Source of the DNA: Antiquaquibacter oligotrophicus
GTDB taxonomy: Bacteria > Actinomycetota > Actinomycetes > Actinomycetales > Microbacteriaceae
DNA length: 64,000 nt
NCBI RefSeq assembly: GCF_020535405.1
Contig: NZ_CP085036.1
Location: 2,604,001-2,668,000 of the forward strand
Reading direction: 5' to 3'
Program-made: the position numbers and the translations under genes
Shown here: positions 22,576-27,735 of the stretch, piece by piece
How positions within the stretch are numbered: the first letter of the stretch is position 1
Layout: every line of letters begins with the position of its first letter
The notes under the pieces: model-generated
Seen by the model: the letters and a program-made list of their open reading frames with translations, nothing else
Told to the model about the DNA's origin: nothing
Databases searched by the model: none

Positions 22576-23223
22576 CTAACCGTCGACGAGCACCCGATCC
22601 GGGGCCTTGGTGCTCGACCGCATGGCTCGTTCGGCGGCCACGATCGAGCGCTCGAGTGCGGCGCGGAGGTGGGCATCCGGACTAGTGACGCACGCCAACG
22701 CGATCCCCACCGTCGAGGTGTGCACGATGGCCTCGGCTGAGCGCTGCCAGCCCCGCAGCGACGGTTGCACCCGATCCAGATACGAGTGTGCCCAGCGCTC
22801 GACGTCGGGTACTTGGAGGATGGCCTCGATCGCGAGTTCGTGAATGGTGGCATCGCCGGTTCGGCTGGCAAGAGACAACAGGCCGGCTCCGAGCGCACGC
22901 TGGCGGTCCATGCTGACGATCGGGAGAGCCTCGGATGCCACGATGAGCGCGATCTCCGCAGAGAAGATCTCACTCCTGGGGTAGAGGCCCACAACGCGCG
23001 GCACAAGGAAGAGGAGATCGCCGCGCCGAGCATCCGAGGTGAGGTCGTTGACGTCACGCGCGAGGGATGCCAGCAGGGGATGTGTGCACGCCGGCTTGTC
23101 GGACCAGGGCTCGCCGGCCAGATATGACGCGTACTCCATGAAGCACGCGCCCCTCGCCGGATTGCGGTGTCGCCCGGGCGACAGAATCGGCATGAGCTGT
23201 GGTGATTCCGACGACAGTTTCAC
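22576..23223 (-). CDS. Conserved-type hypothetical protein
   Basis: 215 residues starting from a GTG at 23223 with GGGGGC upstream; the likely conserved core starts near residue 12 (ILSPGRHRNPARGACFMEYASYLAGEPWSD in two parts). The Cys and the ACTHPLL motif may be functional, but I do not know the family. It is mostly helical and soluble. Between it and pepN lie 33 bases. Function unknown. The 157 bases upstream hold the promoter region of the I36 operon. Confidence 0.75.
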   Translation of the reverse strand: MKLSSESPQLMPILSPGRHRNPARGACFMEYASYLAGEPWSDKPACTHPLLASLARDVNDLTSDARRGDLLFLVPRVVGLYPRSEIFSAEIALIVASEALPIVSMDRQRALGAGLLSLASRTGDATIHELAIEAILQVPDVERWAHSYLDRVQPSLRGWQRSAEAIVHTSTVGIALACVTSPDAHLRAALERSIVAAERAMRSSTKAPDRVLVDG

Positions 23224-23389
23224 GTTGCCCCCAGTGTTGTGGACCCTCTCTCACCAGTGTCCTCCGCGTAAGGCAGATTGTGAAGTAGCACCACACCAGT
23301 GGAGTAGACAACTCTGTCTTTAATGCCTAGGGTATAAAACCACCAACGGGCCGCACCGTTACCACTCACAACACGGAAAGGTGCGGACC

Positions 23390-23812
23390 TTGAAAGCACG
23401 CACGGCGGTCATCGCTGCCATCGCCATCACAAGCCTCGTGGGAATCCTCGGCGCAACCCCAGCCAATGCGGCTGCAGGAGATTGCCCGTCGGGAGATGCC
23501 TGCATCTGGCGCGAAGCTGGTTACGTCACGGGCACGAACGGGCGGGATTACATCCGTTTCGCTCAGTCCATCTACAACTACATCCCACAGACCTACCGTG
23601 ACGGTGGCAGCGGCAACGACACCGCGGACTCCGTCTACAACAACGGGCGCTACGAGTCCGTTCGGTTCTACGAGCACTGGTTCCAGACCGGCCAGTACTT
23701 CACTCTGGCCAAGGGAACCGGCGACAACAACCTCAACAACACGACCGGCGCCGTCACCAAGAACTGGCATGACCGCATCTCGTCCGGTTACTTCGCGAGC
23801 TTCTGGCCGTGA
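23390..23812 (+). CDS. Secreted I36-family (beta-gamma-crystallin-like) protein
   Basis: 140 residues. A Sec signal peptide (basic MKAR, hydrophobic core, ATPANA cleavage near 27) is followed by a mature domain of about 113 residues with C32 and C38 close together (DCPSGDACIW) and the repeated pattern ending NWHDRISS that is typical of peptidase inhibitor I36 (SMI, beta-gamma-crystallin fold). It is secreted and small and Asn/Tyr/Gly-rich. I chose the TTG at 23390 because GGAAAGG sits seven bases upstream; the GTG at 23381 is too close to that site. Its stop overlaps the start of the next gene (GTGA). It heads the four-gene operon. Confidence 0.75.
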   Translation: MKARTAVIAAIAITSLVGILGATPANAAAGDCPSGDACIWREAGYVTGTNGRDYIRFAQSIYNYIPQTYRDGGSGNDTADSVYNNGRYESVRFYEHWFQTGQYFTLAKGTGDNNLNNTTGAVTKNWHDRISSGYFASFWP

Positions 23813-24675
23813 TCCGAGGTCGTCACGAGGCCGCGGCGCTTGTCGCCGCGGCCTCCCTCGTCGCGATCCTGAGTGCCTGCGGTTCCGCGGCAGACGCACC
23901 GATCGAGCTGCCGGATCAGAATCGAGCCCTTTGGGTGCAGCCGCTCGATCAGTACATTCCGGCCCACGTTGTCGCGGCTGACTATGCGGAGAATCTGCTC
24001 ATGCGGCCCTGCATGGAATCCAAGGGATTCGAGTGGAACGTGCCGTGGCGCGACGTTTCGGCGGGGCCGAGTGAAACGGCCAATGAGGCCGGAAGCAGGC
24101 TGTTCACTGTCGAGATTGCGCGCCGGTTCGGGTACCACAATGGTCCGAGTCGGGATAGCGGGATGGATGCGTGGCTGCTCTTCATGCAGCAGGAGATCTC
24201 TCCGGCGAAGGACCAGGCGATCGACGAGTGCACGGATGTCGCGCGTGAGGAACTGCCCCGTCTGAGCGGTGACACCGAATTGGCGGTCGATCTCGCGGGT
24301 GCGGCGTTCAATGGAGCGTTAGAGGACGGAGAGGTCGTTGCCGCGGCGAAGCGCTGGCGCGAGTGTGTGCGCGACTCTGGGGTGCCCGACCTTCCAGATG
24401 AGCCCATCGGTATGCCGACCGACTACATCGTGTCCACCTTCAACCTGGACCAGCCGGGGGCTCCAACACCGGGTGAGATCGAGGTCGCCACACTCGATGC
24501 AACGTGTCGTGAATCGTCTGGTTACGCCGAGTCGCTCTATCAGGAGGAGTGGGAGCGGCAGGTCACGCTCCTGAAAGACAACGCGGACGCGCTCGACCGG
24601 ATGCTCGCAACGATCACCGCAAATCGGCGTGACGTGTACGACGCGATTGCCTCGAACGCACCTCATGCTCCGTGA
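23809..24675 (+). CDS. Lipoprotein of the I36-MacB operon
   Basis: 288 residues from a GTG that overlaps the I36 stop. Signal peptide with lipobox LSAC (C24). The mature part is mostly helical with cysteines in MRPCMESKGFEW, IDECTDVA, WRECVRDSG and LDATCRESSGY, suggesting two disulfides in an exported domain. No enzyme motif is visible. It is anchored outside the membrane, next to the adaptor encoded by the following gene (11-base overlap). I do not know the family; its fixed place between the secreted protein and the transporter suggests a binding or immunity role, which is inference. Confidence 0.75.
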   Translation: MIRGRHEAAALVAAASLVAILSACGSAADAPIELPDQNRALWVQPLDQYIPAHVVAADYAENLLMRPCMESKGFEWNVPWRDVSAGPSETANEAGSRLFTVEIARRFGYHNGPSRDSGMDAWLLFMQQEISPAKDQAIDECTDVAREELPRLSGDTELAVDLAGAAFNGALEDGEVVAAAKRWRECVRDSGVPDLPDEPIGMPTDYIVSTFNLDQPGAPTPGEIEVATLDATCRESSGYAESLYQEEWERQVTLLKDNADALDRMLATITANRRDVYDAIASNAPHAP

Positions 24676-25840
24676 TGCGCCTCAGACGCGGCCCGTGGCA
24701 GCGCCTGTGACCGCGCGCCGCAGGGCAATCCAGTTCGCCGGTGCCGGCGCTGTGGTCGTCGCTGCGATCGCTTTCGGCTGGGTTCTCGCGGCGCAGTTCA
24801 CGTCGACCGCCCAAAGGGAATCGGCGGCACAGCCTCCTCCTCCCACCCCGATCACCGTCGAAGTCACCCGCGGCGATCTCACCGACAGCGTCAGTGTCAG
24901 CGCGGAGATTGTGAGAGAACACGAGGACATCGTCACAGTCGGTGGTTCTGATGGTCGAACGGTGGTGACCGCGCAGCCGGTGAGCAACGGGGGAACGGCG
25001 GGTGCTGGTGCCGTTGTACTGGAGGTCGGCGGGCGGCCGGTGTTTCTTCTGCCCGGAGCGTTTCCCTTCTACCGTGACCTCGTTGCAGGCGCCAGCGGAC
25101 CGGATGTGTCGCAGCTTCAGAACGGACTCGTCGCTGCCGGGCATCCGCTGACCGTCGACGGCAAACTCGGCCCCGAAACCGTTGCAGCGGTCTCCGCGTT
25201 GTACCGCGATGCGGGATACTCTCCGCCCACCGGCGACGTGCCGACGCCAGGCGCGACACCGAGTCAGGGCGCGTCCGCGGCCGCTACGACGCAGTTGTCG
25301 GTTCCACCCGAGGAGTTCGCCGTCGCCCGGTCAGTGCCCGCCATCGTCATCTCCACCACGGATGTGGGAGTTGCTCCGGCGGAGGGTGCCCAGATCGAGC
25401 TCTCCTCGGGGGCGCTCATCGCGTCGGCCACGGTGCCGCAGGCTGTGGCGGCGAGACTGACCGCGGGTACCGCTGGCGAAGCTGTGCTCGCCGACGGTGT
25501 GGCAGGGATGACCGTCTCCGCCCTCGGCGAACCTGACGAGGAGACTGGCGAGAGCACCGTGACCTTCACACCGACGGGATCGATCGACGATTCGCTCGTC
25601 GGCACCTCGACGACGATTCGCCTCGATCTCGAGATCGCTGGCAGGGACTCGCTGATCGTGCCAACCCGTTCCGTGATAGCGCAAGGGGAGCGGGATCCCG
25701 CCGTCTCCAGGCTCTCTCCCGAGGGGACATTCGAACTCGTACCAGTACGGGAGATCGCAGCTCTCTCGGGGCTGAGTGCCGTCGAGCCCGTCGAACCCGG
25801 CGCGCTCGACGCCGGCGACAAGGTGCGGGTGGACCCGTGA
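24665..25840 (+). CDS. MacA-like adaptor with peptidoglycan-binding domain
   Basis: 391 residues. Membrane anchor at about 22-44, a first HlyD/MacA-like beta-barrel segment (ITVEVTRGDLTDSVSVSAEIV, about 63-84), a PG_binding_1 domain around 138-185 (GASGPDVSQLQ, VDGKLGPETVAAV), a Pro/Ser-rich linker, then a second beta-rich half with ADGVAGMTVSALG and IVPTRSVI typical of adaptor proteins. The peptidoglycan-binding domain sits where Gram-negative MacA has its coiled-coil hairpin. It starts at an ATG overlapping the lipoprotein by 11 bases, and its stop overlaps the ABC gene (GTGA). It likely couples the transporter to the cell wall. Confidence 0.8.
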   Translation: MLRDAPQTRPVAAPVTARRRAIQFAGAGAVVVAAIAFGWVLAAQFTSTAQRESAAQPPPPTPITVEVTRGDLTDSVSVSAEIVREHEDIVTVGGSDGRTVVTAQPVSNGGTAGAGAVVLEVGGRPVFLLPGAFPFYRDLVAGASGPDVSQLQNGLVAAGHPLTVDGKLGPETVAAVSALYRDAGYSPPTGDVPTPGATPSQGASAAATTQLSVPPEEFAVARSVPAIVISTTDVGVAPAEGAQIELSSGALIASATVPQAVAARLTAGTAGEAVLADGVAGMTVSALGEPDEETGESTVTFTPTGSIDDSLVGTSTTIRLDLEIAGRDSLIVPTRSVIAQGERDPAVSRLSPEGTFELVPVREIAALSGLSAVEPVEPGALDAGDKVRVDP

Positions 25841-27696
25841 CGACGCTTTTCCTCCGTGGCATCGAGCGTGTGTTCGCGGGGCCGCCTGCATCAGTGGCGG
25901 TGAAGTCGGTCGACCTGGAGCTAGCGCAGGGGGAGTTCCTCGCCATCGAGGGGCCGTCCGGCGGAGGCAAATCGACACTGCTCAACGTCATTGGACTGCT
26001 CGATCAGCCCACCGCGGGGGAGTACGACATCGACGGTGTGCCGGTGGACATCCGATCTCCTCGGCGTGCTGCTGAGCTTCGGTCCGGCGTATTCGCGTTC
26101 GTTTTCCAGGGATTCCACCTCATGGAGAACCGCCCGGTGCTCCACAGCGTCGAATTGGGATTGCTGTATCGCGGTATCTCCCCGGCGGATCGTCGGGACC
26201 GGGCCATTCGAGCGCTGGAGTCAGTTCGACTCGCGCACACCGCTCATCAACGTGCCGCGACACTATCCGGAGGCGAAAAGCAGCGAGTCGCCATCGCGCG
26301 GGCCATGGCTGCACAAGCGCCGGTCATCCTCGCCGACGAACCCACCGGAAATCTGGACTCCGTCAACAGTGCCGGCATCGTCGAGAGCCTCCGCGCCGTG
26401 AATGCAGCCGGAGCCACGATCGTGCTCATCACACATTCGGCGGAGGTCGCCTCCGCAGCGCCCCGACGTGCCCAGATGCGGGACGGAGTGCTCAGGGAAG
26501 CCGCGACGCGGTCGCCGTCGGGAAAGGCAACCGCGCCCGTCCCACCGGGACGACCATCGAAAGTCCGCGCGCTCGATGTGATGCGTGACGCGGCATGGTC
26601 CCTGCTCGCTCGGCGGGGACGATCCGCGGGACTCGCCCTCATGGTGGCGCTCGCCGTTGCGTTGGCGGTCGGGTCGCTCGGAATCGCGGCATCCGCTCGA
26701 TCACAGGTCAGCGACACCTTTGATGCGCACGCCAACCGGGAGGTCGCGGCGGAGTGGAGCCCGTCCGCGTCAGATGGTTCAACCGTGGGGGCGATCGTCG
26801 ATCGTTTTGTGGACCAGGCGGGGGTGGACTCGGTCGCCGTCATCCAAGACTTCGGCCAGCGCGACGTTCGCGCGACCGTCACTCGGGCGCCGGTGTACGT
26901 GAGCGTCCTGGGTGTCGCCGGGGATATCGAGTCTGCTGGTCGGCTCAGGATTCAGCGGGTGGGCGGCGACTTCGCCGAGGGAGCGCTGATCGGAGAGTCT
27001 CTCGCCCAGCAACTCGACATCACGCTCTTCGAGGAAGGGCCAGCGATCATCGTTGGAGGTCGAACCGTTCCCGTGGTCGGCGTGATTACGGAGTCTCCCC
27101 GCTTGCCCGAACTCATGGGCGGGGTGATCGTGGGTAAGGCCGTGCGCGACGACTGGACCGTCAGTCGGGAACAGGCTCTCGTTGTCACGGCAAGCGGTGC
27201 CGCTCGTCAAGTCGCGTCACTCACCCCCGTGATGGTCGACCCCGTCGATCCGGAACGGGTCAGTGTTTTTGCTCCCGTTGACCCGACGACCCTCCGGATC
27301 GAGATTGAACAGGACGTGCTCGGTATTCTTCTCGCGTTCACGGCAGTCTCCATCGTGGCCGCGGGAGCAGCGGTGGCCAACTCGATGGTCGTTTCTGTCT
27401 TAGAGCGCCGTCGTGAAATCGGACTGCGCAAGGCGGTGGGCGCGCGAGGAGTTCACATCGTGTCCCTTGTGCTGACCGAGGCCGCGATCATCGGTGCGGC
27501 CGGCGGACTCGCGGGACTCCTCGTGGGGATGCTGGCGATCCTCACGGTCACGATCGCGCGCGGCTGGGCTCCGGTGTTCGACCTTGCCTATGCACCCGCC
27601 GCGATTGTCGGTGGTGTTGTTGTCGGAATGCTCGGCGGAGGTGTCGCCGCCCATCGAGCATCCCGCATCGCACCCAGCGAGGCGCTACAGAACTGA
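25837..27696 (+). CDS. MacB-type ABC transporter (ATPase-permease fusion)
   Basis: 619 residues. ATPase domain 1-215: Walker A GPSGGGKST at 39-47, signature LSGGEKQRV from 143, Walker B VILADE at 163-168, H-loop H200. Then a helix near 264-286, a large extracytoplasmic domain to about 490, and three C-terminal helices with the FtsX/MacB-type ERRREIGLRKAVGA and ASRIAPSEALQN motifs. This is the MacB topology: it transmits mechanical force across the membrane rather than moving substrate through a channel. GTG start overlaps the adaptor stop. Substrate unknown; the secreted I36 protein at the operon head is the obvious candidate partner. Confidence 0.9.
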   Translation: MTTLFLRGIERVFAGPPASVAVKSVDLELAQGEFLAIEGPSGGGKSTLLNVIGLLDQPTAGEYDIDGVPVDIRSPRRAAELRSGVFAFVFQGFHLMENRPVLHSVELGLLYRGISPADRRDRAIRALESVRLAHTAHQRAATLSGGEKQRVAIARAMAAQAPVILADEPTGNLDSVNSAGIVESLRAVNAAGATIVLITHSAEVASAAPRRAQMRDGVLREAATRSPSGKATAPVPPGRPSKVRALDVMRDAAWSLLARRGRSAGLALMVALAVALAVGSLGIAASARSQVSDTFDAHANREVAAEWSPSASDGSTVGAIVDRFVDQAGVDSVAVIQDFGQRDVRATVTRAPVYVSVLGVAGDIESAGRLRIQRVGGDFAEGALIGESLAQQLDITLFEEGPAIIVGGRTVPVVGVITESPRLPELMGGVIVGKAVRDDWTVSREQALVVTASGAARQVASLTPVMVDPVDPERVSVFAPVDPTTLRIEIEQDVLGILLAFTAVSIVAAGAAVANSMVVSVLERRREIGLRKAVGARGVHIVSLVLTEAAIIGAAGGLAGLLVGMLAILTVTIARGWAPVFDLAYAPAAIVGGVVVGMLGGGVAAHRASRIAPSEALQN

Positions 27697-27735
27697 TGAC
27701 GGCGCGGGACAAAAATCGCCCTCGCACCCGAACCC

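Follow-up and report, generated by a model that had tools for sequence, protein, structure and literature searches.

The window analysed here, a stretch of 64,000 nucleotides from Antiquaquibacter oligotrophicus (Microbacteriaceae), carries four tightly coupled genes on the forward strand at 23390-27696, a cassette that many relatives of this organism also carry. In order, they encode a secreted protein with an I36/betagamma-crystallin-type domain (I36; 23390-23812), a lipoprotein (LIP; 23809-24675), a membrane-fusion-type adaptor (ADP; 24665-25840) and a MacB-type ABC protein (MACB; 25837-27696). The original prediction described four overlapping genes of these kinds, and all four open reading frames are present on the forward strand. 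The I36/LIP and ADP/MACB junctions are GTGA overlaps as described, but the 11-base overlap between LIP and ADP holds only if ATG 24665 is the adaptor start; it disappears with a start at GTG 24695, which fits the length of P0020 (381 aa, 100% identical to ADP). The single parts of the cassette belong to known kinds, and we found no such four-part system described in the open-access papers searched.

The I36 gene probably starts at TTG 23390, behind GGAAAGG, and encodes 140 aa; this start fits because a close homologue, P0018 (89% identical), begins at the equivalent place. The product comprises a signal peptide and one I36 domain, with about 110 mature residues, and it is this domain that likens it to peptidase inhibitor family I36 and the betagamma-crystallins. 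Its Pfam match to PF03995 lies above the gathering score (E 4.9e-7, 30 bits versus 21.1) and is the only one in Pfam, while NCBIfam returned no match. In Streptomyces and in yeasts, betagamma-crystallin-like proteins can act as antifungal toxins, and the Streptomyces metalloproteinase inhibitor is an I36 precedent for the inhibition of secreted proteases. With PF03995 matched by all 30 aligned members, I36 might likewise inhibit secreted proteases and so shield LIP or the transporter from them at the cell surface. We regard this as very improbable: the family name is given to a wide range of small secreted proteins with such a domain, the strongest class-level members are mostly unlinked to LIP, and none of the four cassette genes encodes a protease according to Pfam, although a peptidase-like gene (pepN) flanks the site.

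LIP has a lipobox (LSAC, with Cys24) and four further conserved cysteines (68, 141, 186 and 233). No Pfam family matched it, its structural model is all-alpha (pLDDT 92), and a Foldseek search of this model against the PDB gave no match at E 1e-3. The LIP search gave matches in 55 of 299 family genomes and, across the class, in 93 of the 394 genomes sampled. LIP differs more than I36 does in both of the same-locus pairs that were compared.

Pfam placed a PG_binding_1 domain at residues 144-190 of ADP (E 6.2e-6, above the cut-off). The ADP model (pLDDT 88, pTM 0.67) has a long N-terminal helix (18-44), the helices of the PG domain (146-182) and a mostly beta remainder. It contains no long helical hairpin of the kind used for TolC docking and has the PG domain in its stead, just as had been predicted for the replacement of the MacA hairpin. 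The best Foldseek match in the PDB was BesA (E down to 3.7e-13), which we take to be an adaptor without a hairpin, followed by MexA, CusB, AcrA and MacA; with TM-scores to PDB adaptors of about 0.3-0.5, ADP shows the adaptor (membrane fusion) fold. The adaptor structure of pneumococcal Spr0693 (PDB 5xu0, known by its title) was also among the matches. MACB combines an ABC ATPase domain (ABC_tran, 23-170) with a C-terminal FtsX-type permease domain (500-613) by Pfam, has the fused NBD-FtsX build of MacB and aligns with solved MacB. Its matches included the ABC protein of PDB 5xu1, likewise known by its title and presumably the ATPase of a Gram-positive. The two proteins thus resemble MacAB-TolC in the fused NBD-FtsX protein and the MacA/MexA-like adaptor, but differ from it in the PG domain and the hairpin-less model. 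Moreover, MACB does not qualify as the NCBIfam MacB equivalog (219.2 bits versus 966 required). The organism had been predicted to lack TolC, and indeed the TolC-family profile PF02321 had no match in its genome, while the same profile matched in 7 of 14 control genomes.

The cassette lies between an ORF at 22576-23223 and rpiB (27749 on), a gene named by eye, as was pepN. Of the 27 genomes of the genus searched for rpiB, the window's own included, 26 matched and 20 loci were returned, one being the window's. Within 1500 bases on each side of rpiB (shorter in two loci), none of the four cassette proteins was matched in the other 19 loci. There, rpiB adjoins pepN or its neighbouring ORF in all 19, with 0.66-1.14 kb of other sequence between them in five (L135, L137, L138, L140 and L142). 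DNA alignment to five loci delimited the extra segment to about 23203-27721 in the tightest case, L130, the closest relative compared, and relative to that locus the segment is just the four genes. In the family sample, I36 was found in none of five other genomes of the genus and LIP, weakly, in one. The four genes are a discrete accessory cassette. The neighbouring ORF at 22576-23223, on the reverse strand beside pepN, shows 50-62% identity to its counterparts in those genus loci that gave a match, and has no Pfam or NCBIfam match.

The original prediction looked to other actinobacterial genomes for the same gene order, and this order recurs: all four genes stand in order at 21 loci, the window included, reached from LIP and independently from I36. 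Since the order is kept in other genomes, the arrangement is not due to chance, and these comparisons support the four genes as one conserved unit. Among the named genomes, Microbacterium maritypicum MF109 and M. oxydans BEL4b and NBRC 15586 have the full set. Two full-set loci (L125 and L128) are near copies of each other, and in another (L211) NBD and permease are separate genes.

Neighbours were counted with profiles built from the loci and a limit of 700 bases. On the LIP side, 40 regions of the family were fetched, beginning with the strongest matches and adding a hand-picked set of weaker ones; among 46 LIP genes, the window's included, ADP lies downstream of 21, I36 upstream of 12 and both of 9. 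Eight named loci have I36 in front in five cases, ADP behind in six and both in three. On the I36 side, PF03995 was matched at 46 places in 32 of 299 family genomes, and all were inspected: LIP follows at 21 of them and the full set at 15, which form 14 clusters (two share L032), while 25 have no LIP downstream. In the class outside the family, an I36-like gene stands directly upstream of 24 of 28 LIP genes (27 loci; gap 14-169 bases), and ADP downstream of only two. Judged from these sequences, the core of the system is the I36-LIP pair, which in the class mostly occurs without the adaptor.

These counts bear on whether I36 is simply the cargo of a dedicated secretion route, in which LIP would chaperone it after Sec export and a wall-docked Mac pump would push it through the wall, whatever its function. 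E. coli MacAB moves a Sec-exported toxin, and both the order cargo-lipoprotein-adaptor-pump and the MacA/MexA-type fold of ADP suit such a route. We nevertheless consider it unlikely, since most I36-LIP pairs of the class lack an adaptor immediately downstream and I36 genes that stand alone need none. Of 296 class genomes, 92 have a PF03995 match; among the best 30 class-level loci, LIP was found downstream in one (L239) and as a weak upstream match in another (L233). Most of these loci are without LIP, so the pair draws on a subset of I36 proteins, one that differs in gene context from the stand-alone members. Tandem I36 copies without LIP were seen in other families of the class (L226, L237, L238 and L240).

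Several loci vary the arrangement. L031 has tandem I36-LIP pairs with one transporter, and L105 has I36-LIP pairs with no transporter in the stretch compared. L199 reads I36-LIP-I36. In L203, LIP is preceded by three I36 genes in tandem, and adaptor-NBD-FtsX runs the opposite way. In L198 the order is I36-LIP-ABC-permease-histidine kinase-regulator.

LIP and the adaptor module also occur apart from I36. LIP genes without I36 within 700 bases fell into 15 that follow kinase and regulator genes, 16 followed by ADP and 12 without any such partner. The 15 kinase-regulator-LIP loci (L038-L039 and L042-L054) have a single origin in the LIP tree, with no I36 or ADP adjoining LIP; their kinase carries HisKA_3 and their regulator a LuxR-type domain, as called by Pfam on the kinase of one locus and the regulators of two. 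The adaptor profile matched 80 of 150 genomes of the family, and 20 further adaptor loci were compared, namely the second copy in the organism's own genome and 19 chosen by hand from the profile matches. A lipobox ORF ended within -11 to +51 bases of the adaptor match in 14 of these 20; none of the 20 had a match to the lactococcin profile, and I36 gave only weak matches upstream of the adaptor (L318 and L327). The organism's second lipoprotein-adaptor-NBD-FtsX module lies outside the window at about 1594519-1598148 of G000:C1 (L312:6520-10149), adjoins a divergent ORF that by eye resembles a response regulator, and has no I36 or lactococcin 972 match. Because lipobox ORFs accompany 14 of the 20 adaptors, mostly without I36 or lactococcin, lipoprotein-adaptor-FtsX ABC looks like a general module, of which the window holds the version preceded by a secreted protein. 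Further small secreted proteins, each about 110 aa long, were seen upstream of adaptor modules at L318:7343-7666 (reverse strand) and as a small ORF in L323.

A role for LIP in sensing or stress is the main rival to the reading favoured below, because each part also occurs independently, as lone I36 genes, LIP without I36 and adaptor modules lacking a recognised secreted partner. LIP might, as a lipoprotein sensor or adaptor, signal damage to the envelope or relieve it; I36 would then be a protein that binds the wall and is set free under stress, and the adaptor and MacB would transmit force or eject the damaging compound. The 15 loci with a kinase and a regulator beside LIP agree with this, as does the frequency of lipoprotein-adaptor-ABC loci without a recognised secreted partner. 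On balance it seems rather unlikely, given the accessory and patchy distribution, the regularity with which I36 and LIP are paired in the class, for the most part with no adaptor, and the use of the module behind bacteriocin-family genes. The original prediction staked its case on the I36 and lipoprotein genes not being missing beside the adaptor-ABC pair in relatives. As a rule they are not, yet many adaptor-ABC loci have no I36, and the same-genus loci that we examined lack the entire cassette.

The parallel drawn there with lactococcin 972 proved closer than the prediction could know, because genes of the lactococcin-972 family precede a related adaptor within the same bacterial family. PF09683 was matched at 20 places, spread over 15 of 150 family genomes; all 20 were fetched, and the organism's own genome had no match. 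At 12 of the 20, ADP stands behind the lactococcin-972 gene with a lipoprotein-type ORF between, as in the window, and the ABC genes were matched in 11 of these 12. Five of the remaining places have a large membrane protein (505-679 aa) plus an NBD, as in classic loci, and three have neither. The intervening lipoprotein-type ORFs number 13, two of them in L305; all 13 have the lipobox Cys and four invariant Cys, and LIP is nearly alike. The LIP profile matched them weakly in three loci (E 8e-6 to 9e-4). With the signal region removed, hhalign of LIP against the linked lipoprotein gave a probability of 14% and E 0.002 (best E of 20 shuffles, 0.043); its global mode gave 2-4% (best of 30 shuffles, 0.5%). 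Homology of the two, as judged from such alignments, is unproven.

Lactococcin 972-type loci (TIGR01653/TIGR01654/TIGR03608) share with the window a small exported protein followed by an FtsX/MacB-like ABC, but the window's small protein is an I36 protein and matches neither PF09683 nor TIGR01653, and its ATPase falls below the TIGR03608 cut-off (174.6 versus 254.85 bits). TIGR01654 matched neither LIP nor ADP, and the 25 best of 197 families for MACB do not include it. A family locus of the large-membrane-protein kind (L303) also stayed below all three cut-offs (TIGR01653, 26.6 versus 32.1 bits; TIGR01654, 129.6 versus 189.35; TIGR03608, 232.5 versus 254.85), and the small protein of an adaptor-kind locus (L304) exceeded that of TIGR01653 (43.9 bits).

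We favour, tentatively and at just short of an even chance, a bacteriocin-immunity reading in which the four genes form a unit akin to a protein bacteriocin together with the kit that protects its producer. It draws on observed gene order, signals, conservation, cassette behaviour, domain make-up and the related module behind bacteriocin-family genes. I36 would be exported by Sec and fold outside as a betagamma-crystallin-like domain, and we infer that its site of action is the wall or membrane surface of competing cells. LIP, tethered to the membrane's outer face, would bind and sequester I36 remaining on the producer, much like NisI; the adaptor, docked to the wall through predicted peptidoglycan contact, and MacB would then take bound I36 from the membrane-wall space and push it outward. 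Such expulsion would be NisFEG-like in effect and MacAB-like in build, NisFEG having, to our knowledge, no adaptor. The precedent is nisin immunity, in which, according to PMC8538875, the lipoprotein NisI binds the bacteriocin and the ABC exporter NisFEG removes it. The window shares this logic in having a lipobox protein and an ABC protein beside a secreted-protein gene, but LIP has no Pfam match and is likened to NisI by logic, not by direct comparison; I36, moreover, is a protein of about 110 mature residues and not a lantibiotic.

For bacteriocin immunity speak the 21 ordered loci, the 24 of 28 class-level pairings, the absence from all 19 same-genus loci and the 12 of 20 lactococcin-972 places. 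In addition, the tandem I36-LIP pairs of L031 and the pairs of L105 multiply as toxin-immunity pairs do, and the order in L198 is a bacteriocin-locus layout. Against it stand the many stand-alone I36 genes, including the 25 of 46 family places without LIP, the kinase-linked and other LIP genes without I36, the common adaptor modules lacking a recognised secreted partner and the unproven lipoprotein homology; that LIP varies more than I36 is not something immunity specifically predicts.

A bolder version, which we hold possible though doubtful, is an undescribed actinomycete bacteriocin class. In it, I36 and lactococcin-972 proteins would be interchangeable front genes of one protection kit, consisting of a four-Cys lipoprotein that has a new fold and confers immunity and of a Mac-type pump docked to peptidoglycan, and the kinase-regulator-LIP loci would be resistance modules of non-producers. 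A large lipoprotein family without a Pfam model is now tied to I36 proteins usually labelled 'peptidase inhibitor', and many lactococcin-972 genes in this bacterial family also come with the adaptor module. According to a 2024 paper (PMC11796350), what the two partner genes do has been verified in no lactococcin 972 locus; this question becomes testable here, with a lipoprotein predicted to bind directly and a two-gene form of the system that has no adaptor beside it. Finally, at L106:8084-11756 and L109:4814-8313, I36 stands directly before an NBD and an FtsX-type permease of 811-864 aa, without LIP or adaptor, a three-gene layout that resembles classic lactococcin-972 loci.
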